Shown: positions 12,842 to 37,772 of the stretch, in pieces
Layout: the number at the start of each line of letters is the position of its first letter
Numbering within the stretch: the first letter of the stretch is position 1
Source of the DNA: Hydractinia symbiolongicarpus
Taxonomy: Eukaryota > Cnidaria > Hydrozoa > Anthoathecata > Hydractiniidae
Length of the DNA stretch: 64,000 nucleotides
Direction of reading: 5' to 3'
Assembly (NCBI RefSeq): GCF_029227915.1
Contig: NC_079879.1
Coordinates: 21,964,501 to 22,028,500 of the forward strand
Notes under the pieces: generated by a model
Databases searched by the model: none
What the model was told of the DNA's origin: nothing
What the model saw: the letters and a program-made list of their open reading frames with translations, nothing else
Made by a program: the position numbers and the translations under genes

Positions 12842-15800
12842 ATGGAAGATGCAACACAAAGAAGTAAACTTTTTTTGCACAACGTTGCATGTCATAATTT
12901 GTCAGATAAGGAGAGAGCTAAGTTAATTGCTTCCCTGCAGCATTATCAAGATAATAAGTCAATTGAACAGTTTTTTAAGCGTCTGGTCATTATTCTAAAG
13001 CCAATAGCAAAACTTGAAATGCTATATGATATTCGAAGTATTGTTTACCAGAAAGATCTTGAAAGTTTTGACAAGATGTTAAACTCCCTTATTAGAAGTA
13101 ATTTAGTTACTGCACCACATGTTATTAGGGACACTTATAGCACAGCATCAACTTCTTCAAGTAATGATCTATCTCAAACTGCACCAGTTATACATAATTC
13201 GAAGCAAAGGTCTGTTAGTAATTTGTCACCCAATAAACTGAAGACATTTAAATACTTAAAAGATAATGGAAATTTGACTTTGCCAAATAAACTTTCCACA
13301 TCTACAAATGGCATAAAATATACAGTTGTCAATTTTGTGCAACCAGATAAATTCCAAGACCTAGGGTTCAGTATTTGTGGTGGTCAAGAAAATAAAATGG
13401 GTATTTTTATTGGCTTTGTCGAACCTTCATCAAATGCAGACCACAGAGGATTAAAAGTTGGAGATGTGATAGTTGAAGTAAATGGTATATCTTTGGAAAA
13501 TATCTTGTTAAACTCTGCACTTGGCTTACTAAAAAATTTGAAGCAACTGAAATTTGTTTTGAAAAGAGGAAATATAACTGACCTGTCTCCCTTGCATCTC
13601 ATTAATCCATGGTAAATATTATTACACATACTTTTTTTCTCTTATATCATTAAAACCAATGCTACCATGTATATAAAAATTTCTCCTTACACACTCAAAG
13701 GTTTACGAATTCATAACAAATGTGTATGAATTCATAACAAATGTGCTCCAACTGAATTTTTAGAGTATGTAAGATACTTAGTTTACCTATGATAAGTGAC
13801 ATATATCTTAAGTGGTTTGCTTTGCTAAAATACTCTATTATCCTAGTTACTGATCAAAAAAGTGTCTGTGCCTTGTTTACTTGCCTGTTTCACTATATGC
13901 ATTACCTTTTTGGGCTGCTGTACCAATGTGTTTTATAAGCAATCACCAGTATTTATAAGACTTCGCTCTTATTTTTTACTCATAGGACACACAAGAAAAA
14001 GATTATACGTAGTAATGTGTTGCAGTCTCAAGTGCAACCAACAGGAAGTGCAAGAAAATTTTATCCCCAACAATCTGGAAATAAGAAGTCTTCTCCTTTG
14101 CTAGTACCTAAAAATGTTTTTCATACCACTACTCCCCCACCATCTAAGGTATTTCACAATGTTGTAACTTTGTATGAATATGAACCAGACTGTGACATTA
14201 TTAAAATTATTTATTTATGTATATAAGGAATTAACACAGGGTGTTTATCCTTGGAAAAAGGTTTTTTTGTGATTTGTTCTAAAAATCAACTGTCATTGTC
14301 AAACAATTTGAAGCCCCAATCAGTTATAGAATTAAATTGTAAAGACAATTCTTAAGTTTTGATAGAAAACTGTATGAGAAATTAGATGTCTCAATATAAT
14401 CAAGGTAAAAAGTAATAAAATAATAACAATAACAATTTATGGTGGTTATTCCAAGAAATCAAAAAACACTGGATTATTTCCAAAAGGAACAAAAAATGAT
14501 ACATTTAGCTAAGCTAATTTTAGTATAAAAAACATTTTTTAAAGTTACGATATTCCAAAAGTGCTAAATGAAATTAAGCATGTTGAATTTAATTCTCATA
14601 CACCAATTAAATTAACATGGTTTGTCAATTTTAGGAATTAAAGGGAACCCAAGGTATAAAATGATGTTGGACTTATATTATGGGTAAGCTTGTAAAGCTT
14701 ATGTGTGTTGTTGGACTTATATTATGGGTAAGCTTGTAAAGCTTATGTGTGTTGTTGGACTTATATTTTGGGTGAGCTTGTAAAGATTGTGTGTACTCAC
14801 AAAATTTGATTGCAAACCGGCATGCAGATCTTAAGTTATAGGGCATCAGCAAAAAAATTAAGAGGCCGAGCAAATAAGTGTCATTTTGTCAAAAAAAATG
14901 TTAATCAATTAACCTTTACAATATCTATGCATTAATAAACTTTGAATGCACATACCTTAACAGGTCTAAAATAACTGATGACAGGAAATGTCAAAATTTA
15001 CTTAACTTAAATATGACATCATAATTTATGCGGCATAAATTAATCTGAAATTCTTTAAATGCGAATGTCTTAAGAACGATAAGAGTTTTTTAAAAAATTT
15101 AAAAAGACTTGTTAACCAACTTTTTTAAGCTCTATAATATAAGTCCAACATTATTTTATACCTTGGATTGCTTTAAAGACTAATTAAATTAAGGTGGTTG
15201 ATGGCTAGTAATGTCAAAAGGAAGTAAAATGAAATGGTAAAAATGACAACAGATACAAAGCAACATAGCAGTTTTTAGTATGTAAAAATAGAATTTTAAA
15301 AAAAACGAGGTATATTTTTAGTGTAATTTCTCATAGGCACTGTCAAAATACATAGATTCAAGTTTTGGCAACATCACAATAACCCTTTTTATAACCCTTA
15401 AATCTGTAAAAATTAATGTAAATAAGTTATTATTAAGGTATTATTAATAATAGTAGTAAAATATTTTATATTTTGTCGAAAATAACAAAAAAAAGTAAAA
15501 AAAAGAAAAAAGGTCAATTAGAATTCACTATTTGCATTTTGTTCTACAATAGAGGGCTTAATAAAATTTAGTGTAATCAATGAGTTTCTTGGGCAGGCTT
15601 AAACCTGAATGGTTTAAAACGTTATTGTCATTTTATCATAGTGTCAATTTTACTTTTTTTTCATAATTAGATATGACAATTATGACAATTATTATTCCTA
15701 TAAATATAGACAAAAAAAATTATATGCGAAAAAATTTTATCCATTATCTAATAAGATTTTAAAACAAGTCAGCTTGCCAGATGATAAAAACAAGGAAATG

Positions 15801-24800: not shown

Positions 24801-27120
24801 CTATCTAATGGTGGCCTAGTTACTAAGTTGCCATAAGAAAACTATGTTATTATCTTTCTTATTTTAATTATATTTTTTCGTCTTCTTTGATATTCTTTTT
24901 AATCTTTTGCAGCGCCAAAGTCACAGAAATTCAGTTTAAAATCCACAAAAGAAGAGAACGAAAAAATGATTTACAACCGAATTAATACAAAACACTATCA
25001 TAAGAGTATATCTTTGAATGACGAGTTAACGAATGAAAAGTTTGGCTCGATTAGTCGTATGCCTCAACCATCCATGATGTATGCTAGTATGTTACAGAAA
25101 GGAAGACCAGAATCGCTTGAACAAAACAAAAATGAACGAGAACGAATAAACAGCTCGGAATTCAGCTCTTTTCTCGATGACTCGAGCGATAAAATTGGTG
25201 CCCAAAAGGACGAGAAACCGAAAGAAACGTTTGAAGCAAAGCGCAAAAGGACAGTATCATTTGACGAGAAATATAATACTGTAACAACATTTCAAGATAC
25301 TTTACCGAAACCAACAAATAAAAACGATATTGTCAATCAAGCAAGTGATAAAATAAACCGTGACCGAAAATACAGCGTTCCAGTTCGAAACTCTCCCAGG
25401 TACGTACAAGTAAAAGTGGAAGCCGCTGAACCGAAAAACAAGCCCTACAAAAATTACTTGAGCAGAAGCCAGGAGACACTGAATCGAATTGATTCAAATG
25501 GAGTAAATACAAATGACTTTTTGCTGCAAAAGAGTATACAAAATGATTCATGTGAATCAATGAGCAGTAGTGAAATTATTGACAGTAAACCGGATAATTT
25601 AGCTATTTCTAATAGAAATAATGCAACGCTGGATTCAGCCGTACAACGTGGAAGCTCGCCAGGAAATCCTGCAACAAATGGGCATGCCATGTTGAACGAT
25701 GCTGAAGAAAGGGAGGCAGGCGACACGGTGCCTGATGAGTTATACGCGATTGTCAACAAACCAAAGAAACAAGATCCTAGTCAGATAAAAGTGCGCGATA
25801 GTTTTTGTGCGTACGAACTTGATCTTTCTTCTTCACCCGATACAATACATAAAAGTTACTCCCTTTCCATCGATACTGTCAACATAAACAAACCGCACAA
25901 GGTCTACAAGTACTCAAAAGATTCACCAAAACCTCTTGTGGTTTTGAATGGTAACGACTCATGTGAAAATAAACCAACTGTTAACGGTGCTGGAGCAACT
26001 GTTGAAGAAAACTTAGTCGACAATGGCCCAACTGTTGATGGTGCTACAGATGGACGACCGGATGTGTCAGATAACGTAAGTGAAAATGAACCAACTATTA
26101 ACGGCGTTCCGACCGAACGTCTCGCTGCACCTGATCATGGAAAGGACCTGCTAACGAATACAAGGCTTAGTGAAAGCGGGAACGATTTGCACGAAATAGA
26201 CGTACCGAAGGGATTTTCTTCCTTAGGTAAGCGCTTGTTTTTGCAGCACGCACCTTGACAGTCCTTTATGGAATAGGTGTTGTAGCTACTTTTATGTTAG
26301 TTCTTTTGACATGAGAAAAAAAATCAACTCAAGCACCTATTGTGTTGTAGATAAAAATGAGTTTACATGTGCTAGACTTCGTAAGCTACTTTTTCGAGCT
26401 TTTTGTATCCCTTGACCCTTCCTCTTGTTTATTTATTGTTATGTTTTCGTAGTAACAAAACACGTCTACACGCTTTGGGTTACGAATTAATACAACTTTA
26501 ATGAAGTCCATTATTAACTATTATATTATCGATTGCTTTACAAAATATTTAATCCTTTTTTTATTACTATTGTTAAACCTTTTATGATTCAGGATTGAGT
26601 ATATCAGGCGGGAGTGACTCAAAAACGCAGCCTGACATCAAGATAGCAGTAGTACACCCAGATACAGCAGCCTTTGTGACCCCACTAAAGGTAATGCGCT
26701 CAACCCTTTTCTTTTTTTTCCCTCGTAAAATTTCACATTTTTAGAAGGCTTACATTCTTTGTAAAGTAGCCTGGTTTTCATTGTGGTTGAATATCTTGTG
26801 ATTTTAAGGCGTTTAAAGAAGTACACGTTGACGTGACTCTAGTCTTGGAATAGTGAAAGAAGTTCTTGAAAGACATGGAATTTTAGATTACATTTTTTTA
26901 TTATTCTGAAATGGGTTAAATGCGCATACGACTTTGATCTTTTTTTATAGTTTTTTCAAATTTTTTATCAACAATACATTTTTAGGCTGGTCAGATACTA
27001 ATCTCCGTGGATGGTGAAAGCCTGATTGATATTCCACACAAAGAAGCTGTCAATATAATACGCATGCGCTATAAAGATAAAACACATCCCACAATGCACG
27101 TTGTTGTTTCTGATCACTAA
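12842..27120 (+). CDS. WHRN: Whirlin-like scaffold with two HHD and three PDZ domains, complete
   Basis: In vertebrates whirlin organises stereocilia tips and the Usher-2 complex. Exons: 12842-13611, 13986-14148, 15907-16037, 16941-17088, 17497-17587, 19213-19956, 20492-20619, 21678-21769, 24205-24299, 24565-24630, 24913-26226, 26593-26690 and 26986-27120. All are GT-AG and in phase, giving 1324 aa (human 907). Domains: N-terminal HHD about 8-86; PDZ1 about 159-241 (LGFSICGG); PDZ2 about 322-404 (LGFNIRGG, then GLRPGDQIIEVNG), followed by the whirlin-type HVGKVPEGRH...YSWITTNG segment; Ser/Lys-rich linker about 435-682; second HHD about 683-787 (ending in EIDRFDAMV-like sequence); disordered region about 810-1247; PDZ3 about 1248-1324 (GLSISGG). 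The N-terminal HHD separates it from PDZD7, which lacks one, and the three PDZ domains separate it from short harmonin forms. Both linkers are much longer than in vertebrates. Extra cassette exons in the large introns cannot be excluded. Confidence 0.88.
14640..15174. mobile_element. MITE with about 45-bp terminal inverted repeats, in whirlin intron 2
   Basis: The left end reads AAAGGGAACCCAAGGTATAA and continues through ATGTTGGACTTATA. The right end, reverse-complemented, reads AAAGCAATCCAAGGTATAAA and continues through the same ATGTTGGACTTATA. It is 535 bp, has no ORF for a transposase, and carries three 44-bp tandem repeats near its left end. It is related to the element at 10991. Confidence 0.75.
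14667..14795. repeat. 44-bp tandem repeat, about 3 copies
   Basis: TTGGACTTATATTATGGGTA recurs at 14667, 14711 and 14755 with exact 44-bp spacing; the third copy is diverged. The array expands the left arm of the surrounding MITE. Confidence 0.9.
20191..20400 (+). mobile_element. tRNA-derived SINE in whirlin intron 6
   Basis: The head shows a Pol III box A (TGGCTTATTGG), an anticodon-stem-like pair (CTCTCGC and GCGGGAG) and a box B (GGTTCAATTCT) in tRNA spacing. An unrelated tail containing CCCTGGGTTAACCC follows. The 3' limit is approximate. It lies in the intron 19957-20491, in the same direction as the host gene. Confidence 0.6.
24633..24703. repeat. (GTTT/GTCT)n tetranucleotide repeat
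   Basis: Low-complexity repeat beginning directly after the donor of the whirlin exon that ends at 24630. ORFs reading through it are artefacts. Confidence 0.85.
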
Positions 27121-28890
27121 TACTACAGAAGAACATGATGGAGCAAACAGACAGTTACATGGGATTTGTCCCATTTTGGATGGATGAAGCATTCTCTTCG
27201 TGACAGATTCAAATTACTTGATTTAACCGAGTTCGATATTTTGAAGAAAAGTTCATATTTATGTCAAATCATTGAACAAAATATTTTGTTCGTACTTTTA
27301 TAAACCGTACAAATAGAACTTGAAGTAATTTTCTTCGTTCATTAAAACAGCTGATTTGCCACTGGGCTTAAACAAATTTTGTATACTATATATATTTTTT
27401 TTAAGTAAAGTCGCAACACAAAATTATAAAATGAATATTTCTTACATCTTTTAAAACTTTTAGTGATTCTGAAATAATTTAATGACCGTCTCCTGTTTTA
27501 GTGCCTCCTTTAATAACCGCCACCACCCCCTCCCACCCTCCCCCTCCTTCCTTAATTTCCAAAAAAAATAATAAACGTCTGGGTGGTAATAGAGGAAATC
27601 CGGTACTTTAAAGGAGAACACAGATTTTTTATTCTGTTTTTGTGCTTATTGTTAAGCTAGCAGTTTTTAATTATAAACTATATTGATTTTTATAAGAAAA
27701 AGTTTTTATATATAATACATAATAGTTTTTTACAAACTTCTATTTTTGTAACTTAGGAACAGTATGTTCTTTTATATCTAAGAAGCATACGTTTTTATAC
27801 AATGACATTTGATAGAACAGCCATGTTTTAACTAACGAAAACAACATCTATTTTTTAAAATCTAAGCATAAACTCTTTGATTTTTTGCGTTTATAATCAA
27901 TGCTCTCTATAGAACCCGATGACACCTTTACACTTTCATATTTTTTCTGCAGGAACTCTGTCTATTTATAAATCTAATGTTAAAATATTGTGTAACATAT
28001 GCTACTGTTTATATTTGTATACTTGTATATGTGTGATACACAAAACATATTGTTTCGTATGCGTTTGTGTAAAAAAGAGAGTAATTGTTGCGATAAAAAG
28101 TTGTTAAATAATGTTTACAGTACAAAATTTTGCGACAAGGTGTACTATTAATACCAACCTCGTCTACAGGCCTACTTTCTGATAGGAAAGACCGACGTAG
28201 AGGCTAGGAAATTGATGGAGCTTAACAGTGTTTATTTACTGCTTTTGTATTTGGTCATGGTGTCCGCTGATTGGTGAGTATACTGTATAGGAATATAAGT
28301 TTTTCTGACATTGATTTTTTTTTCTATGAAGAATATATTCTGGTCTGTAAAAAACTCAATAATATGACTATGAGAGGTGGTCCCGAGGCTTAATCTTTTT
28401 CTTTCAATCTCAGCCGTAATAAATTTCATGATTTTACCCTTAAAAGTACAATTTTGAGTTTTTCTTGACAAACCTCCTGTACTAGTGATAAGCGAACTAA
28501 AAATTTCTGTCGATTTTAATTGAATTTAAAATTGTAATGCTTGTCTAATTGGACAACGTGCGCGTTATTTCCTGTACGACGCTATTAGATTGCCACTTGC
28601 CAGTTATATACATGATAAATTGCCAATGGTATTGCTGAAAGCATTTTTTAGAGAATAAACTTAAACAGCAACCTCGTCCCCAGGGTCTTGTGGCCCCTGA
28701 GCCGGGAAATCGGATTAGTCACGTGTCAAAATTATTCAAAATGATTCTTTTTGATGAAACAAAGTTGTGTTGCAAGTTTCAAGTTCTAAGGATAATCCTA
28801 ACAGGAGTTATTATATTTTCCCCATTATAAGGATTTCATAGAGATTTTAGGGGTAGTTTCGAGTAACGGCCAATATCAAAGCCTCTGAAA
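27121..28890. other. 3' UTR of the whirlin gene and downstream AT-rich DNA
   Basis: AATAAA occurs at 27570-27575, about 450 bp after the stop, and is a plausible poly(A) signal. A C-rich stretch (27520-27550) precedes it. I see no further exon. Confidence 0.5.
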
Positions 28891-29190
28891 GGTATGGGCG
28901 GAATCCGCCCCCCCCCCCCCCCCCGGACGGTGTTTTTTAATAACTCCTGATTGCTTTCTTATATGGCTATGATACTTACTGAGTTTCAACATTTATCTAA
29001 TTTTACAATCATCATACGATGATGTGACAAAACAGCTAGCTGCAATGATAATTAATTCCTGTGCGTGCAGTTGACAGAGCCATTTCTTTACTTCCACTTT
29101 AACAATAACTTCTTTCTATAAATAAATTTTTCTTATTCCGGGCTCGGCCTGACTCCAGCCGACAGTACCTGGTTTCCGGAGCGGCATTAT

Positions 29191-29284
29191 GACTGTCCAT
29201 GTCGGGCTTAACGAACTATATTTTCAATCTATTTTTCGTTTGTCCTAGGCATGCTGACGAGCCCTGACATTGGGCGAAACAGTC
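29191..29284 (+). ncRNA. Type III hammerhead self-cleaving ribozyme (predicted)
   Basis: Stem III strand GACUG (29191-29195) and U29196 pair with A29279 and CAGUC (29280-29284). C29197 is the cleavage-site base, giving the classic GUC triplet. Stem I: CAUG (29198-29201) pairs with CAUG (29250-29253); an internal loop follows, then GGGC (29204-29207) with GUCC (29242-29245) and AACGAA (29210-29215) with UUCGUU (29235-29240). The core CUGACGA (29254-29260) fits CUGANGA. Stem II is GCCC (29261-29264) with GGGC (29272-29275) around a 7-nt loop. GAAA (29276-29279) completes the core. Stems I and II are closed and stem III is open, so the topology is type III. The stem I internal loop is where natural hammerheads contact loop II. 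Activity is not shown. Confidence 0.8.
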
Positions 29285-29547
29285 TAAAAATGATTTATGC
29301 TAACGAAATACATTTAAGTTGTCATTCTTTTTCTATTTGAAGTGTTTATGCGGAGCTGCGGCGTTTATGAGAATGTTTCGTTTCTGTTATCAAGTTCTAA
29401 AACGTCTGCATACGAGGTTGTTTTTTGTCCCCGTTTAAGCCTATTTCAGGGTTCGCAAAGCCCGTTTTAGCGAAAGCTTCTGGGGATCCGCCCCAGACCC
29501 CGCTTGGGGAGCTTAGAGCGCCCCCCAAGACCCCCAGCTGTATATTC

Positions 29548-29600
29548 AAATTTTCTTAGTAGGTCATGATGCTGCGCATCATGACCTACAAAGAAAATTT
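29548..29600. repeat. 53-nt near-perfect inverted repeat (hairpin)
   Basis: AAATTTTCTT and TAGGTCATGATG on the left pair with CATCATGACCTA and AAGAAAATTT on the right, with one 2-nt mismatch per arm and a 5-nt loop. CGCCCC boxes flank it. It lies 264 bp after the hammerhead-like motif and looks like the core of a foldback element. Confidence 0.8.
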
Positions 29601-30004
29601 GCTAGATCCGCCCCTGATTCGATCCATAAAAACCGAAAGATATGTTAAAACAAATTTAGCTTTCAGAAACTTCAAACAGAATGTAAAAATTCGCTCTAGA
29701 ACAAAAGTAATTATATTTTAAGCAGATAGTGGCATTTTTAACAATTTTCAAGCTTCTGATGACGTCAGAGAAAATGTGCTGACGCAAGCAAAAATTTATT
29801 GCCGCCATTTTGTTCCTTTTATGACGTACTATAAGTGTGCCAAGTTTGATTCAATTTGAACTTGGAGAAAAGAATACGGATTCTTTCCTCCAAGATTTGA
29901 ACAATCCTATGAAAAGTTATTGAGGGGGGGGGGGGGGCGGAATCCCCCCCCGGTCATAGTATGTTCGAAAAACCCCGAACCGAATAGGAGGGTTAAACAG
30001 TAAA

Positions 30005-32969
30005 CTAGCCATAGTTACCACTAATGCGCCCCGAATTACTAATAACGATTTCAAACATTCAAATTTAGAACGGGATTTAAAATTAAAATGGAAAATGGTG
30101 GACGTTTGAAATCTATAAAAACTGCAGTGTTAGAACTTATTATTTTCGTGATTTTCACATTTGGCTAAGGCTCTATCTATAAAGTTAGATCTTGATTAAA
30201 TATATGTACACTTTAAACGCCTCTAGCCTTCTTGTTGTGTAATTTCACGTAATCATTGCTTTTGATTTTTGGTTAAAATTCGTTCAAAAGACTTACGCAT
30301 ACATTTATGACTTATCCAAACTCCAAAAATTCTTGTGCTGTAATAACAAATTGTGTCTGAAAGCTATTCTGCTGAAACATTTTCCGCCAAATATGACGAA
30401 TATGATAGAAATGCAGTACGGAATTGCATAGAGGCTTGTGAATAAGCTTATTGCCCAGGGGAAAATTTTTAAATAAGAAGCCCTGCGACTTGAAGATTTC
30501 CGTCATTTGCCTAAAAGATTCTGAAATTTGAAGTAGACTTTAAAACGGAGAACAATGGGGTATATAAACACATCATAAGTATCCTAATTCTCAATTATTA
30601 TTGCGTAAAATACAACTTGCTAAATAAAAAATAATTTTTTTTTACATATATATAGTATATATTCTAAAACAATAGTTAAAACTTTAACTGGATTTTTACA
30701 AGCTCGTGAGCTTGTATTAAAACGCAAAAGTGTCCTACAAGAATGGAAATTTTTGCCTCTCTGAGCACCGACACGGGAGTAGTCGTGTGTTCGAATCTCA
30801 TCTTGGTAACTATTTTTACTTTTTTTTTCTTTTTACTATCTCGCCCGCGAGGACGTGTTTACTGACTGACCTAACGAAAATTGAAATTTCGAGAAATTTT
30901 CTATCAATATTATTGCCTATCCGAATAGCAAAATATGTCGTGTCTAACTTCAGCTTTTTATACACTTTTTTGGCGAGGTTGTTTGCGTATATCATACGTC
31001 TTGTTTTATAACTGATCTCGAAAATTCCAGGATGCAGGATTGCTATGTATGAACTTCACGATTCGAATATATATAATAACTTCTGAACAATTTCAATTTC
31101 AATGAATTATTACTCTGTTAAGTTACCAATAAAATCCTTAAAAATTTCTCTCGTTGAAGATTTTTCGAAACTGCTGATGGTGCATGGTTTCATAACAAAT
31201 GATCTGAAAAAGAAAGTATATTTAAAATTGAGAAAGAAGAATACAATTTTACCAGAACTGAATTAATACTAGGTTGTTTAATTATTGTCTACTTATCTGA
31301 TTTAAAGTTAGAATTTATTAAAAAGATACAAATCAATGCCATGTGATACACAAAAGGTATACTATATAAATAAAAATATATATATAAATTTAGTCAAGCT
31401 GGCTTTGATATCATTGTTAAACAAGTATAATATTAAGCAGGCGATACAAGATTTTCAAACCTGTGGACAATACAGGACTTATTTTGTCGAAATCGATTAT
31501 TGAATTTTACAAATTTGATTGTTTATTATCGAGGAAATTGATTGGTCATTGTTTTCGAATTGAATTGAACAAGTTGATACAAAAAAGGGTAGACACTCAA
31601 TAAATTTGTCAGATTTGATAAATCAACAACATCATTTATAATTTCAAGAAAAAACATGAAAAAGGGAAGAAAACAAAGAAACCTGTAACATACTGTGGGT
31701 AGCGTCTAGTTGTACTGCAAGGGGCTAACTATGTTATGTTATTGGTTAATTTATCAGTTCAACTTGACTGTTCCGTGCAATGAACAACAATATTTTTTCA
31801 TGATTCAACAAATATCTTTTTATATATATTCTTGCGGTCTAATTCGTGTCAACTAATCACGGGCAGCCATTATGAAATGGGGTACAAATGCCGTAATTAA
31901 TGTTTTTGTGGTGAAATCTTCATAAACACAATACTGGATTTTTCAAGGAATTCTTTTTTTTTTAGTCAAATCTTTAATATGTTTTAGATACTGCTTAATT
32001 TTTGCCATTTTGCGACATTTTAACGACGTTTTACTTGTAAATTCTGTTTAAGTAAGGTTGCTACTTTGAAGGTTTGACCGTGAAAAGTCCACTTTGTTCT
32101 CCATCGGATAGCAACGAAGTAGAACATTCTGACCGCAAGAATACATGATAGCAGCCTCACAAAGGTTCCTTTAGAAGTTATTTTACTCACCCAAAACGCC
32201 TATACTTTTTACGGTGTATGTGGCTTATCAGCACCCTCGTTGATAAAATTACACAGGGCAGGATAAAAGTTTTTTGTTGCTTCTGAAAAAAGGGACTCTA
32301 ATGAAAGCACTATTTTGTGCAGTTCTAGCTTGATAGCTGTAGTACAAGTGAGAGTAGTTTTAGGACTATTAACTTATAAAATGCAAGAATTTAAAAATAA
32401 GTATTTAGCTCCCTAGCTACATCATTAAAGCTATTACAACAAGCCAGACCATCGGGAATGGAAGACCAACAAAATGCAAGCAGTTTTAGTCATATGGCCA
32501 TACACAGAAGGTTCTGTTCTTGATTGACTTTAAATTGTGATGCATTTATAAATTGCGGCCTTTGGATCAACGCCATAAACCGTTCTGAGTTTAATTTCAT
32601 ATAAAATATAAGTAATCCTTCTACTTACTGTTAACAAGTTTCGAAACAACTTGGACAAAGAAAAACAAACCTTTTCTTGAAGATAAATTCACGTGGGCTG
32701 CAGTGACATTTAAGCATATTAAACGAGACAATATTACAAAGCTTTAAATTAACATAACAAAAGAATCTCGATTAATATTTTTTATGGCAGTCAAATCTTC
32801 AGAGACAACAAAGAAACCGAGACAAGATAAGTTTTGCTCGATCAGTGTTATTTTTGTCTTGATGGTACCAAACACACAGGTTGTGTTATATCAAACCTAG
32901 GTTGAATGTTCGAGCCGAAGTTCCCCCGCGAAGTTGAGAGTAAGAAAAAAACTTCTCCCATACATAAAA
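30005..32969. repeat. 2.97-kb direct tandem duplication, copy 1
   Basis: Begins ctagccatagttaccactaa and ends acttctcccatacataaaa, directly abutting copy 2. Neither copy has a recognisable gene; the 93-codon ORF at 30730 is not a known family. The middle, about 30725-32485, matches copy 2 at a constant offset of 2969 with no difference that I saw. Both outer parts differ by many substitutions and small indels. Confidence 0.92.
30750..30800 (+). repeat. tRNA-like 3' half with Pol III box B, in copy 1
   Basis: GAGCACCGACACGGGAGTAG followed by TCGTGTGTTCGAATCTC resembles an anticodon arm plus T arm. Box B (GTTCGAATCTC) is good; box A is weak. It is present unchanged in copy 2 (about 33719-33769). 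It is a SINE relic or chance, not a functional tRNA. Confidence 0.35.
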
Positions 32970-35936
32970 CTAGCCATAGTTACCACTAATGCGCCCCGAA
33001 TTACTAATAACGATTTCAAACATTCAAATTTAGAACGGGATTTAAAATTAAAATGGAAAATGGTGGACGTTTGAAATCTATAAAAACTGCAGTGTTAGAA
33101 CTTATTATTTTCGTTATTTTCACATTTGGCTAAGGCTCTATCTATAAAGTTAGATCTTGATTAAATATATGTACACTTTAAACGCCTCTAGCCTTCTTGT
33201 TGTGTAATTTCACGTAATCATTGCTTTTGATTTTTGGTTAAAATTCGTTCAAAAGACTTACGCATACATTTTTGACTTATCAAATCTCCAAAAATTCTTG
33301 TGCTGTAATAACAAATTGTGTCTGAAAGCTATTCTGCTGAAACATTTTCCGACAAATTTGACGAATACGATAGAAATGCAGTACGGAATTGCATGAGGCT
33401 TGTGAATAAGCTTATTGCCCAGGGGGAAAATTTTAAATAAGAATCCCTGCGACTTGAAGATTTCCGTCATTAGCCTAAAAGATTCTGAAATTTGAAGTAG
33501 ACTTTAAAACGGAGAACAATGGGGTATATAAACACATCATAAGTATCCTAATTCTCAATTTTTATTGTAATTAACGTAAAATACAACTTGATAAAAAAAA
33601 AATAATTTTTTTTTACATATATATAGTATATATTCTAAAACAATAGTTAAAACTTTAACTGGATTTTTAAGCTCGTGAGCTTGTATTAAAACGCAAAAGT
33701 GTCCTACAAGAATGGAAATTTTTGCCTCTCTGAGCACCGACACGGGAGTAGTCGTGTGTTCGAATCTCATCTTGGTAACTATTTTTACTTTTTTTTTCTT
33801 TTTACTATCTCGCCCGCGAGGACGTGTTTACTGACTGACCTAACGAAAATTGAAATTTCGAGAAATTTTCTATCAATATTATTGCCTATCCGAATAGCAA
33901 AATATGTCGTGTCTAACTTCAGCTTTTTATACACTTTTTTGGCGAGGTTGTTTGCGTATATCATACGTCTTGTTTTATAACTGATCTCGAAAATTCCAGG
34001 ATGCAGGATTGCTATGTATGAACTTCACGATTCGAATATATATAATAACTTCTGAACAATTTCAATTTCAATGAATTATTACTCTGTTAAGTTACCAATA
34101 AAATCCTTAAAAATTTCTCTCGTTGAAGATTTTTCGAAACTGCTGATGGTGCATGGTTTCATAACAAATGATCTGAAAAAGAAAGTATATTTAAAATTGA
34201 GAAAGAAGAATACAATTTTACCAGAACTGAATTAATACTAGGTTGTTTAATTATTGTCTACTTATCTGATTTAAAGTTAGAATTTATTAAAAAGATACAA
34301 ATCAATGCCATGTGATACACAAAAGGTATACTATATAAATAAAAATATATATATAAATTTAGTCAAGCTGGCTTTGATATCATTGTTAAACAAGTATAAT
34401 ATTAAGCAGGCGATACAAGATTTTCAAACCTGTGGACAATACAGGACTTATTTTGTCGAAATCGATTATTGAATTTTACAAATTTGATTGTTTATTATCG
34501 AGGAAATTGATTGGTCATTGTTTTCGAATTGAATTGAACAAGTTGATACAAAAAAGGGTAGACACTCAATAAATTTGTCAGATTTGATAAATCAACAACA
34601 TCATTTATAATTTCAAGAAAAAACATGAAAAAGGGAAGAAAACAAAGAAACCTGTAACATACTGTGGGTAGCGTCTAGTTGTACTGCAAGGGGCTAACTA
34701 TGTTATGTTATTGGTTAATTTATCAGTTCAACTTGACTGTTCCGTGCAATGAACAACAATATTTTTTCATGATTCAACAAATATCTTTTTATATATATTC
34801 TTGCGGTCTAATTCGTGTCAACTAATCACGGGCAGCCATTATGAAATGGGGTACAAATGCCGTAATTAATGTTTTTGTGGTGAAATCTTCATAAACACAA
34901 TACTGGATTTTTCAAGGAATTCTTTTTTTTTTAGTCAAATCTTTAATATGTTTTAGATACTGCTTAATTTTTGCCATTTTGCGACATTTTAACGACGTTT
35001 TACTTGTAAATTCTGTTTAAGTAAGGTTGCTACTTTGAAGGTTTGACCGTGAAAAGTCCACTTTGTTCTCCATCGGATAGCAACGAAGTAGAACATTCTG
35101 ACCGCAAGAATACATGATAGCAGCCTCACAAAGGTTCCTTTAGAAGTTATTTTACTCACCCAAAACGCCTATACTTTTTACGGTGTATGTGGCTTATCAG
35201 CACCCTCGTTGATAAAATTACACAGGGCAGGATAAAAGTTTTTTGTTGCTTCTGAAAAAAGGGACTCTAATGAAAGCACTATTTTGTGCAGTTCTAGCTT
35301 GATAGCTGTAGTACAAGTGAGAGTAGTTTTAGGACTATTAACTTATAAAATGCAAGAATTTAAAAATAAGTATTTAGCTCCCTAGCTACATCATTAAAGC
35401 TATTACAACAAGCCAGACCATCGGGAATGGAAGACCAACAAAATGCAAGCAGTTTTATTCATGGCCATACACGGAATGTTCTGTTCTTGATTGACTTTAA
35501 ATTGCGATGCATTTATAAATTGCGGCCTTTGGATCAACGCCATAAACCGTTCTGAGTTTAATTTCATATAAAATATAAGTAATCCTTCTACTTACTGTTA
35601 ACAAGTTTCGAAACAACTTGGACAAAGAAAAACAAACCTTTTCTTGAAGATAAATTCACGTGGGCTGCAGTGACATTTAAGCATATTAAACGAGACAATA
35701 TTACAAAGCTATAAATTAACATAACAAAAGAATCTCGATTAATATTTTTTATGGCAGTCAAATCTTCAGAGACAACAAAGAAACCGAGACAAGATAAGTT
35801 TTGCTCGATCAGTGTTATTTTTGTCTTGATGGTACCAAACACACAGGTTGTGTTATATCAAACCTAGGTTGAATGTTCGAGCCGAAGTTCCCCCGCGAAG
35901 TTGAGAGTAAGAAAAAAACTTCTCCCATACATAAAA
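32970..35936. repeat. 2.97-kb direct tandem duplication, copy 2
   Basis: Second copy, in the same orientation and without spacer. Its right end (acataaaa) runs directly into the 54-bp repeat array. The junctions share only AAA(C), which fits microhomology or unequal exchange rather than target-site duplications. Confidence 0.92.
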
Positions 35937-36100
35937 CAAACACTATATACCCGCGGTCCACTAAATGTGCGCCCCTTCGGCGGGGCGCAACAAACACTAT
36001 ATACCCGCGGTCCACTAAATGTGCGCCCCTTCGGCGGGGCGCAACAAACACTATATACCCGCGGTCCACTAAATGTGCGCCCCTTCGGCGGGGCGCAAAA
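35937..36100. repeat. 54-bp tandem repeat, three copies, each with a GC hairpin
   Basis: CACTATATACCCGCGG begins at 35941, 35995 and 36049, exactly 54 bp apart. Each unit carries CCGCGG and a hairpin in which GCGCCCC pairs with GGGGCGC around TTCGGC. Since 54 is divisible by 3, frames stay open on both strands (18-residue periods such as NTIYPRSTKCAPLRRGAT). I regard these ORFs as repeat artefacts. Confidence 0.95.
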
Positions 36101-37772
36101 ACCTGTATTTTTTGTTTCCGTTGATCCGGGTTGTGATGAATTACCTGTTTTGGAATTCCGGGTTGCGCCGGATTACTTGTTCCGGAGTTTCGTATTCCAT
36201 GTTCAGCAAGCCTGGCGAGGATAATGTTTTTCGGGAAGCACGTGGAAACATAATTTTTCTTTATTTTTATGTTATTTATTTCATTTCATTTATTTACTTT
36301 ATCTAGCGCCCTCCGCAGTTGAGGAGTAATGTCTCTGTGGTTAACAACAGAAAGAATACTGTTGCCTATCGTTGTTAGTTGACCTGTAGCTACAATTCAT
36401 TATTTTTAGCTGCTAGCTACGATGTTTCCTCTTCTTCTTATCTCACATATAGCTAAACCCTGTATTTTTTGCATAAGAATCCTCAAGCGAAAGTGACGAT
36501 GCATCTACCAGTGAACATATACAATGTGAACAAAATACAGTAAATCCTGTTTTGTAGTACAGACCTCAAAAGGTTAGTTTTTATCGTACACAATAAATCG
36601 GGCTCGGTATTCAAGTAATGGTATGATCGGAATCGAGTACGCCAAGAAAATATGTGGAATTAAGCGCCTTGATCGAGTATGTGTAAACTTGTTCACAAGT
36701 AAAAAGTATTGTGCAACAATTTAGTAAATATGTGCAAAACAAAGTAGCTCATTTTTGCTAGGTTTCGATGTATAATCAATTTAAAATTGTTAAGGTCAAG
36801 ACGTGCAAGAAAAACGTGCGAGAAAATTTGTTTCTTTAAAAAAAACATTTTCTCTGTAAGTAAAAGTCAGATACACAAGTTTCACATGCACGACTTTTCG
36901 GCCCCATCTTTGATGTCGCTTACACGATCAGTGCCCAATGCCAATGGTGCACGTAATTTTTTAAGGCGTCTCGTAACTTGGGTAACTCAGACACACTTAG
37001 TTGACAAATTCTTTGTCCCCTGGACGTTAAGGATAAACACTGTTTAAGAGAGGACTGGATATTACGAATGGAATTTAAGAGTGAAAACATTTACACAGTG
37101 ATGTTGTTATATGTTGGGAATTAGTCAGTGTAATCTGCAGAACCCATGGACATACAGACTATGCCGACAATCCTATAGATGAATTTCTTTGCTTGTATTT
37201 TCACCGGCAAGCTGTTTCGGCGTTGGTAATGCGTAGCAGGAAAAACTTTGTTGCACTATAGGTGAAGCAAAGTTATTTAGAGGGCTAAAACTGTGCACCA
37301 AATTTTAAAATTTACAGTACAGATGAAAGGTGCCTGACCCTACTAAATCAATGTATACTAAAGGGTGGTAGACTGAGCTACCACAACAAGAAGCAGTGCT
37401 GGTAAATATAAAGCACAACAATAATTAGAGTAAAGTTTAAAAAATATTCAGTATTCAGCATCCTTGACAGCAAAATTTCAGTCTTGCTAATTTTTTTATT
37501 TAGTTTTTATACTCCAGCCTTTCAGACTCATTGTTCTTATAAAAATGTGTACTGTCTGGCCTGAAGTATTACTAAAAAAGCTTCCAGAAAAGTCAATTAA
37601 TGGTGGTATATATATTGACATTGGGTGAGAGTGTGCTTTTGGTGTGTCTAGTCAATAAGGGATGGCTTTTATTGACTGGCACAGCCTGTTCATTGTGCCA
37701 ATGCATTGAGTGTTTGATGAATGCCCAGGCCATTCCTTGAGACAAGTGCGATTGCAAGTGCACTCGCCCGCA

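Follow-up and report, generated by a model that had tools for sequence, protein, structure and literature searches.

Our analysis confirmed a complete, well-formed type III hammerhead ribozyme (HHR) in the genome of the cnidarian Hydractinia symbiolongicarpus, at positions 29191-29284 on the + strand of the window (the whole 64,000-nucleotide stretch of DNA that was analysed). The ribozyme lies within a copy of a repeated element that we assign to the hAT-type DNA transposons; its sequence, fold, family, position and strand were computed here. Our favoured reading, to which we give a probability of about 0.6, is that this HHR, with its long helix I and its location on the sense strand 3' of a hAT-type transposase frame, cuts transposon transcripts and caps or modulates the transposase.

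The hammerhead motif and its fold

Read directly from the + strand, the motif contains the CUGANGA box, the GAAA box with CAGUC after it at 29280-29284, a UH cleavage site, the A15.1-U16.1 pair and pairing at 10.1-11.1 (Table 1). Helices I and II are closed and helix III is open, which is the type III topology. The first-pass annotation had described the same topology, core, stems and coordinates, and direct reading and folding both agree with it; its predicted cleavage position, after 29197, fits the core geometry. Our own type III descriptor gave a single match in the window, with helices of 6, 4 and 5 bp plus the U16.1-A15.1 pair, and none on the - strand of the window. A looser descriptor additionally allowed this core to be read, weakly, as type I, with a helix III of 2 bp. 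An alternative register with cleavage at 29244 was ruled out, as it leaves a helix I of 1 bp.

Table 1. Features of the transposon copy and of its hammerhead ribozyme (window coordinates)
Feature	Position	Strand	Basis
hAT-type transposon copy, 3' part only, 5' end missing	28999..29616	+	boundaries common to genomic copies
Final unit of a short tandem repeat; longer copies have additional units	28999..29052	+	copy comparison
AATAAA upstream of the ribozyme; same place in 4/4 long copies checked	29121..29126	+	
Motif M, conserved GC-rich stretch CCGGGCTC..GACAGTACCTGG..GGAGC	29138..29185	+	copy alignment
Type III hammerhead ribozyme (HHR)	29191..29284	+	fold, descriptor, simulations, phage-trained covariance model, genomic copies
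Helix III 5' strand GACUGU, partner 29279-29284 (ACAGUC)	29191..29196	+	fold and pair probabilities
C17, predicted cleavage after this base	29197..29197	+	core geometry
Helix I	29198..29253	+	fold, pair probabilities, haplotype alignment
Helix I, basal 6 bp	29198-29203/29248-29253	+	
Helix I, next 4 bp	29204-29207/29242-29245	+	
Helix I, UA bulge	29246-29247	+	
Helix I, apical hairpin	29210-29220/29230-29240	+	
Core CUGACGA	29254..29260	+	read directly
Helix II GCCC/GGGC, loop UGACAUU	29261..29275	+	read directly and fold
Core GAAA	29276..29279	+	read directly
Palindrome, 26-bp arms, adjoins element 3' end	29547..29601	.	repeat analysis
3' terminal inverted repeat CTAGATCCGCCCCTG	29602..29616	+	match to 5' termini of copies

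When 29186-29290 was folded alone, the minimum-energy structure was this hammerhead (-29.0 kcal/mol, z = -3.1), and none of 200 shuffles of the segment reached an equally good energy. The hammerhead accounts for only 7% of the ensemble of the same segment, and the pair probabilities reveal a competing fold, with 29198-29209 paired to 29259-29273. Once flanks are added, the hammerhead comes within 2-4 kcal/mol of the optimum, in energies that exclude tertiary contacts, which we counted in favour of the main reading. The addition of upstream sequence made another fold slightly stabler than the hammerhead, which we counted against it. The upstream strand GGGCTCG (29140-29146) is a perfect complement of CGAGCCC at 29258-29264, in the core and helix II. 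By pairing there it could block the ribozyme; the complementarity is imperfect in three genomic copies (L156, L167 and L169).

Chance expectation and covariance models

Simulated sequence (third-order Markov, trained on the window, one strand) contained no type III match as good as that of the window, either in 1 Gb or in 5 Gb, while looser type III matches numbered 3 and 10, respectively. With no equal in 6 Gb of these simulations, we rejected a chance origin of the motif.

The Rfam covariance check that the first-pass annotation had proposed came out below threshold. A scan of the window reached the gathering score for no family, and RF00008, the Rfam type III model, gave the HHR 23.2 bits versus 48.5 required. 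We do not regard this miss as decisive, since phage loci with hammerhead patterns were missed as well: gathering scores were unreached anywhere in nine phage loci (out of 11 found), seven of which contain motifs that the descriptor accepts as type III. The 3' region of L146, one of the long genomic copies of the element, gave 18 Rfam matches, none of them at the cut-off.

Phage control motifs were taken from IMG/VR contigs (at least 142 distinct motifs, 38 of the 142 being type III by descriptor). Model R2, a covariance model built from 37 phage type III motifs with L087 dropped for its implausible 69-nt helix I, found one match in the window, the HHR, at 30.6 bits and an E value of about 2e-6 (a rough figure). 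RF00008 and R2 both pass over the long helix I in favour of the nearer GUC (29242-29244), neither model having a long helix I of its own; we counted this preference against the main reading. Model R1, built from 14 Hydractinia haplotypes, comes close to a single-sequence model. Applied to 33 of the 34 phage loci with these motifs (L038 omitted), it recovered 9 of 36 motifs at E <= 0.023, along with two other places, and reached two further motifs at E 0.55 and 2.5 only. A pattern search of IMG/VR and GTDB for relatives with loop II UGANA gave no matches; it was with looser patterns that the IMG/VR contigs serving as controls were obtained.

The carrier is a hAT-type element

Copies elsewhere in the genome, which the first-pass annotation had suggested looking for, are present. 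A search of the H. symbiolongicarpus genome with 29141-29290 as the query gave 152 candidates. Forty of these were scored and every one matched, with identities of 87-100%; the copy set consists of 39 genomic loci and the window copy. The HHR-bearing sequence is an interspersed family by these 40 scored copies, many of which end 3' at the position equivalent to window 29616 and many of which match the window copy at 98-99% identity across the common 618 bp. The two copies measured end to end were 5,543 bp (L146) and 5,441 bp (L147) long.

In the longer copies, the 5' terminus CAGGCGCGGATTTAG mirrors the 3' terminus CTAGATCCGCCCCTG, the two forming terminal inverted repeats (TIRs). All five copies with both ends in hand have TIRs and matching target-site duplications (TSDs), of 5 bp in L176, L139, L146 and L152 and of 6 bp in L147. 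A search of 26001-30000 that allowed as many as 4 mismatches turned up no 5' TIR for the window copy. The transposase frame is open over 1,026 codons in L146 and L147; Pfam recognised Dimer_Tnp_hAT (2e-9) and DUF4371 (9e-23) in its C-terminal part and no domain in its N-terminal part. An unbroken C-terminal transposase stretch of at least 575 aa is retained by seven copies. The 3' terminal repeat (up to 3 mismatches) was seen in 32 of the 40 copies and transposase sequence in 29, with one or the other in 39, L169 having neither. On the sequence evidence of a hAT transposase domain, TIRs and TSDs, we class the carrier as a hAT-type DNA transposon. Its HHR is in sense with the transposase, whose stop codon lies about 800 nt before the ribozyme; about 330 nt separate the ribozyme from the element end.

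L160-L167 fall in a larger repeat of >5 kb, L160 being 98-99.9% identical to six of these loci among the matches listed (L164 aside), and this repeat holds a decayed transposon relative followed by internal repeats of roughly 100 bp. On C11, near 27.44 Mb, L151, L153 and L154 are about 8 kb apart and share the same core mutation, which suggests a local array.

The module could instead be a captured retrozyme-like or other self-processing RNA, with a circular or processed RNA as the unit of interest. Circular RNA driven by HHRs is known from retrozymes, as far as the available excerpts of the literature go, and the HHR belongs to a conserved island with a sharp 3' edge at its end; L169, moreover, has the module with no recognised hAT terminus or coding remnant. 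We nevertheless find this improbable, given the hAT context of 39 of 40 copies and the single HHR per copy by descriptor, with none in the scanned 5' parts (L177, L178 and L179), and given that animal retrozymes, as the same excerpts describe them, are type I tandem repeats. In the loci scanned we found neither two HHRs flanking a unit nor HHR tandem repeats. Retrozyme-like circles are not expected, since the descriptor found no second HHR in those loci, and the circular RNA product raised in the first-pass annotation is therefore not favoured.

Surroundings of the window copy

Upstream of the transposon copy lies a PDZD7-like gene, most of whose exons in the window match the H. symbiolongicarpus protein P0121 at 100%; the exon at 12842-13612, used as a protein query, gave no matches. 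The stop codon of the gene is at 27118-27120, and the HHR starts 2.07 kb downstream on the same strand. Calling the location intergenic, as had been done at first, is incomplete: the ribozyme is beyond this gene but sits inside a transposon copy. Strand and distance could also suit a 3'-UTR ribozyme of the PDZD7-like gene, like that of mammalian Clec2. We consider this extremely improbable, as copies of the HHR family are dispersed over many loci and AATAAA sites occur at 27570, 28418, 28654 and 29121.

The transposon copy is flanked by inverted GGCGGAATCC and long C/G runs (28896-28921 and 29924-29949), and one GGCGGAATCC repeat is adjoined by a stretch that also matches 207-272. About 0.4 kb past the copy starts a tandem duplication (30002-35937; 2.97 kb at 99% identity) with no frame of >110 aa, except at the right edge. 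A 54-bp tandem repeat of about 3 copies (99%) occupies 35935-36102.

Conservation and decay among copies

The descriptor recognises an intact HHR in 25 of the 40 copies. The core is damaged in the other 15, which we counted against the main reading: the first core C is changed to U in L151, L153, L154 and L156, ten copies (L159-L168) carry changes at 11.1/G12, and the HHR is also lost in L169. L158, whose cut began inside its ribozyme, is absent from the alignments and included in the descriptor count.

Across 14 close haplotypes, 95.3% of cells were paired versus 37-49% in slid controls, and the changes in helix I below the apical hairpin mostly preserved pairing. The compensatory double changes hoped for at the outset did not appear in any of 29 pairs among these haplotypes, and covariation on them did not go beyond shuffles, which reached the observed values; both points were counted against the main reading.

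Subfamilies were compared using L138 versus L159, L160 and L168, with L157 also included for motif M. Between them, the HHR is 87-91% identical (84-88/97), like the coding stretches (about 85-86%; 216/253 and 381/444), and motif M is 90-94% identical (47-49/52). The 200 nt upstream agree at 66-67% of aligned positions, and the downstream sequence has no clear similarity. L155, L156 and L169 have no conservation peak at the HHR, which again was counted against the main reading.

All seven copies with an unbroken C-terminal transposase stretch have an intact HHR, compared with 5-8 of 9-21 broken-transposase copies, depending on the length cut-off. The link between the two kinds of intactness is not robust, the copies being non-independent and age a confounder. 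As Fisher p varies from 0.007 to 0.10 across length cut-offs (0.044 with 10 broken copies), we gave this contrast no weight.

The HHR might be a passenger, once active or accidentally captured and carried along without selection or effect on the life cycle. Such a history would agree with the 15 damaged cores, with the three copies lacking a conservation peak, with stems free of double compensation and with the fragile link to the transposase. We hold it to be rather unlikely, because between subfamilies the HHR is conserved like coding DNA while its flanks have diverged, and because each of the seven copies with an unbroken transposase stretch has kept the HHR.

Conservation might also act on DNA. 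Motif M has the fuller form CCGGGCTC..CTCC..GACAGTACCTGG..GGAG and is present as two copies in the transposon's 3' part (29138-29185 and L146:2041-2092), the related copy lying about 460 bp upstream in longer copies; the ribozyme follows only the second copy. Both the strong conservation of motif M beside the HHR and its related copy with no HHR are consistent with a 150-bp stretch conserved for its role as DNA, for instance as a subterminal site bound by the transposase, with the ribozyme incidental. There is little probability in this, in our view: chance is not expected to produce a complete hammerhead, and most helix I changes below the apical hairpin retain pairing.

Proposed action on transposon transcripts

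We infer that the site is transcribed, that the transcript is cleaved and that expression is affected. According to the favoured reading of a ribozyme acting on transposon RNA, a transcript running from the transposase gene through the 3' end of the element would contain the ribozyme. Once folded, the ribozyme would cut behind C29197 (in window numbering), and the upstream product would end in a 2',3'-cyclic phosphate and the downstream one begin with a 5'-OH. The coding part of the RNA would be left without the sequence past the cut and without any poly(A) tail placed downstream of it. The likeliest effect would thus be a transposase output that is capped or modulated, possibly lowered.

Between the transposase stop and the HHR, each of the four long copies checked has six AATAAA sites, the last of them directly upstream of motif M. 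Transcripts may thus end before the ribozyme, which was counted against the main reading. Some transcripts may escape cutting through these sites, in which case the targets of the ribozyme could be read-through RNAs. A further idea, which we put forward tentatively and regard as somewhat doubtful, is that a DNA transposon with a working ribozyme cuts its own mRNA as a self-limiting switch, in which motif M, with its GGGCTCG strand, might govern whether folding occurs.

Comparison with known ribozymes and transposons

An intact type III hammerhead in a cnidarian hAT-type element would extend the host range as well as the kinds of ribozyme-carrying mobile element. It also raises a testable question, namely the regulation of a transposase by RNA self-cleavage in a DNA transposon, and genetic tools are available for Hydractinia, which is kept as a laboratory animal. 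In the open-licence papers searched, we found neither hAT elements nor Hydractinia described earlier as carrying a hammerhead.

In the available excerpts of published work, animal HHRs are mainly type I and are found in retroelements and satellites, with a few in host genes (PMC7229834, PMC7761336, PMC6155905, PMC3088659, PMC6431247, PMC7936874). Type III HHRs have already been reported in animals by two of these sources, for mammalian Clec2 (PMC6155905) and for flies, termites and delta-like agents (PMC7936874). These precedents qualify the first impression that a type III form is unusual in animal DNA.

The atypical type III HHRs of delta-like circular RNAs from toad and termite, and of termite and dipteran genomes (PMC7936874), are alike in their short proximal helix I, internal loop and apical hairpin and in being isolated motifs in animal genomes. 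As the excerpts of that paper present them, they have a 6-bp helix II and a GCCR/YGGC pseudoknot in which the helix I loop takes part with its 5' side, and no DNA transposon is described for them. The Hydractinia HHR has the long helix I with an apical hairpin; in place of the 6-bp helix II and the GCCR/YGGC pairing, it has a 4-bp helix II and, judged by eye, may form a 4-bp GACA/UGUC contact that involves the 3' side.

The canonical type III HHRs found in plant retrozymes and phage contigs share the core, the 4-bp helix II and the topology, so far as the sources at hand describe them. Their helix I is about 6 bp with a short loop, amounting to 14-19 nt in the 37 phage motifs versus 56 nt in the Hydractinia HHR. 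Plant retrozymes are described in the same sources as LTR retroelements with HHRs in a dimeric arrangement, unlike the Hydractinia element.

The discontinuous HHR of Clec2, in the available portion of PMC6155905, is likewise a type III form with an enlarged helix I downstream of a coding region; it differs in belonging to a host-gene 3' UTR and in a helix I of 150-1500 nt, whereas the Hydractinia HHR is in a transposon. Penelope-like and Terminon HHRs are also borne by mobile elements and, in what is accessible of their descriptions, are type I variants in retroelements, in contrast to the type III form in a cut-and-paste DNA element seen here.

With hAT DNA transposons, the Hydractinia element has in common the Dimer_Tnp_hAT transposase, the TIRs and short TSDs. 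The usual hAT TSD is 8 bp. The Hydractinia element differs from the usual hAT in a TSD of 5-6 bp and in carrying a hammerhead.
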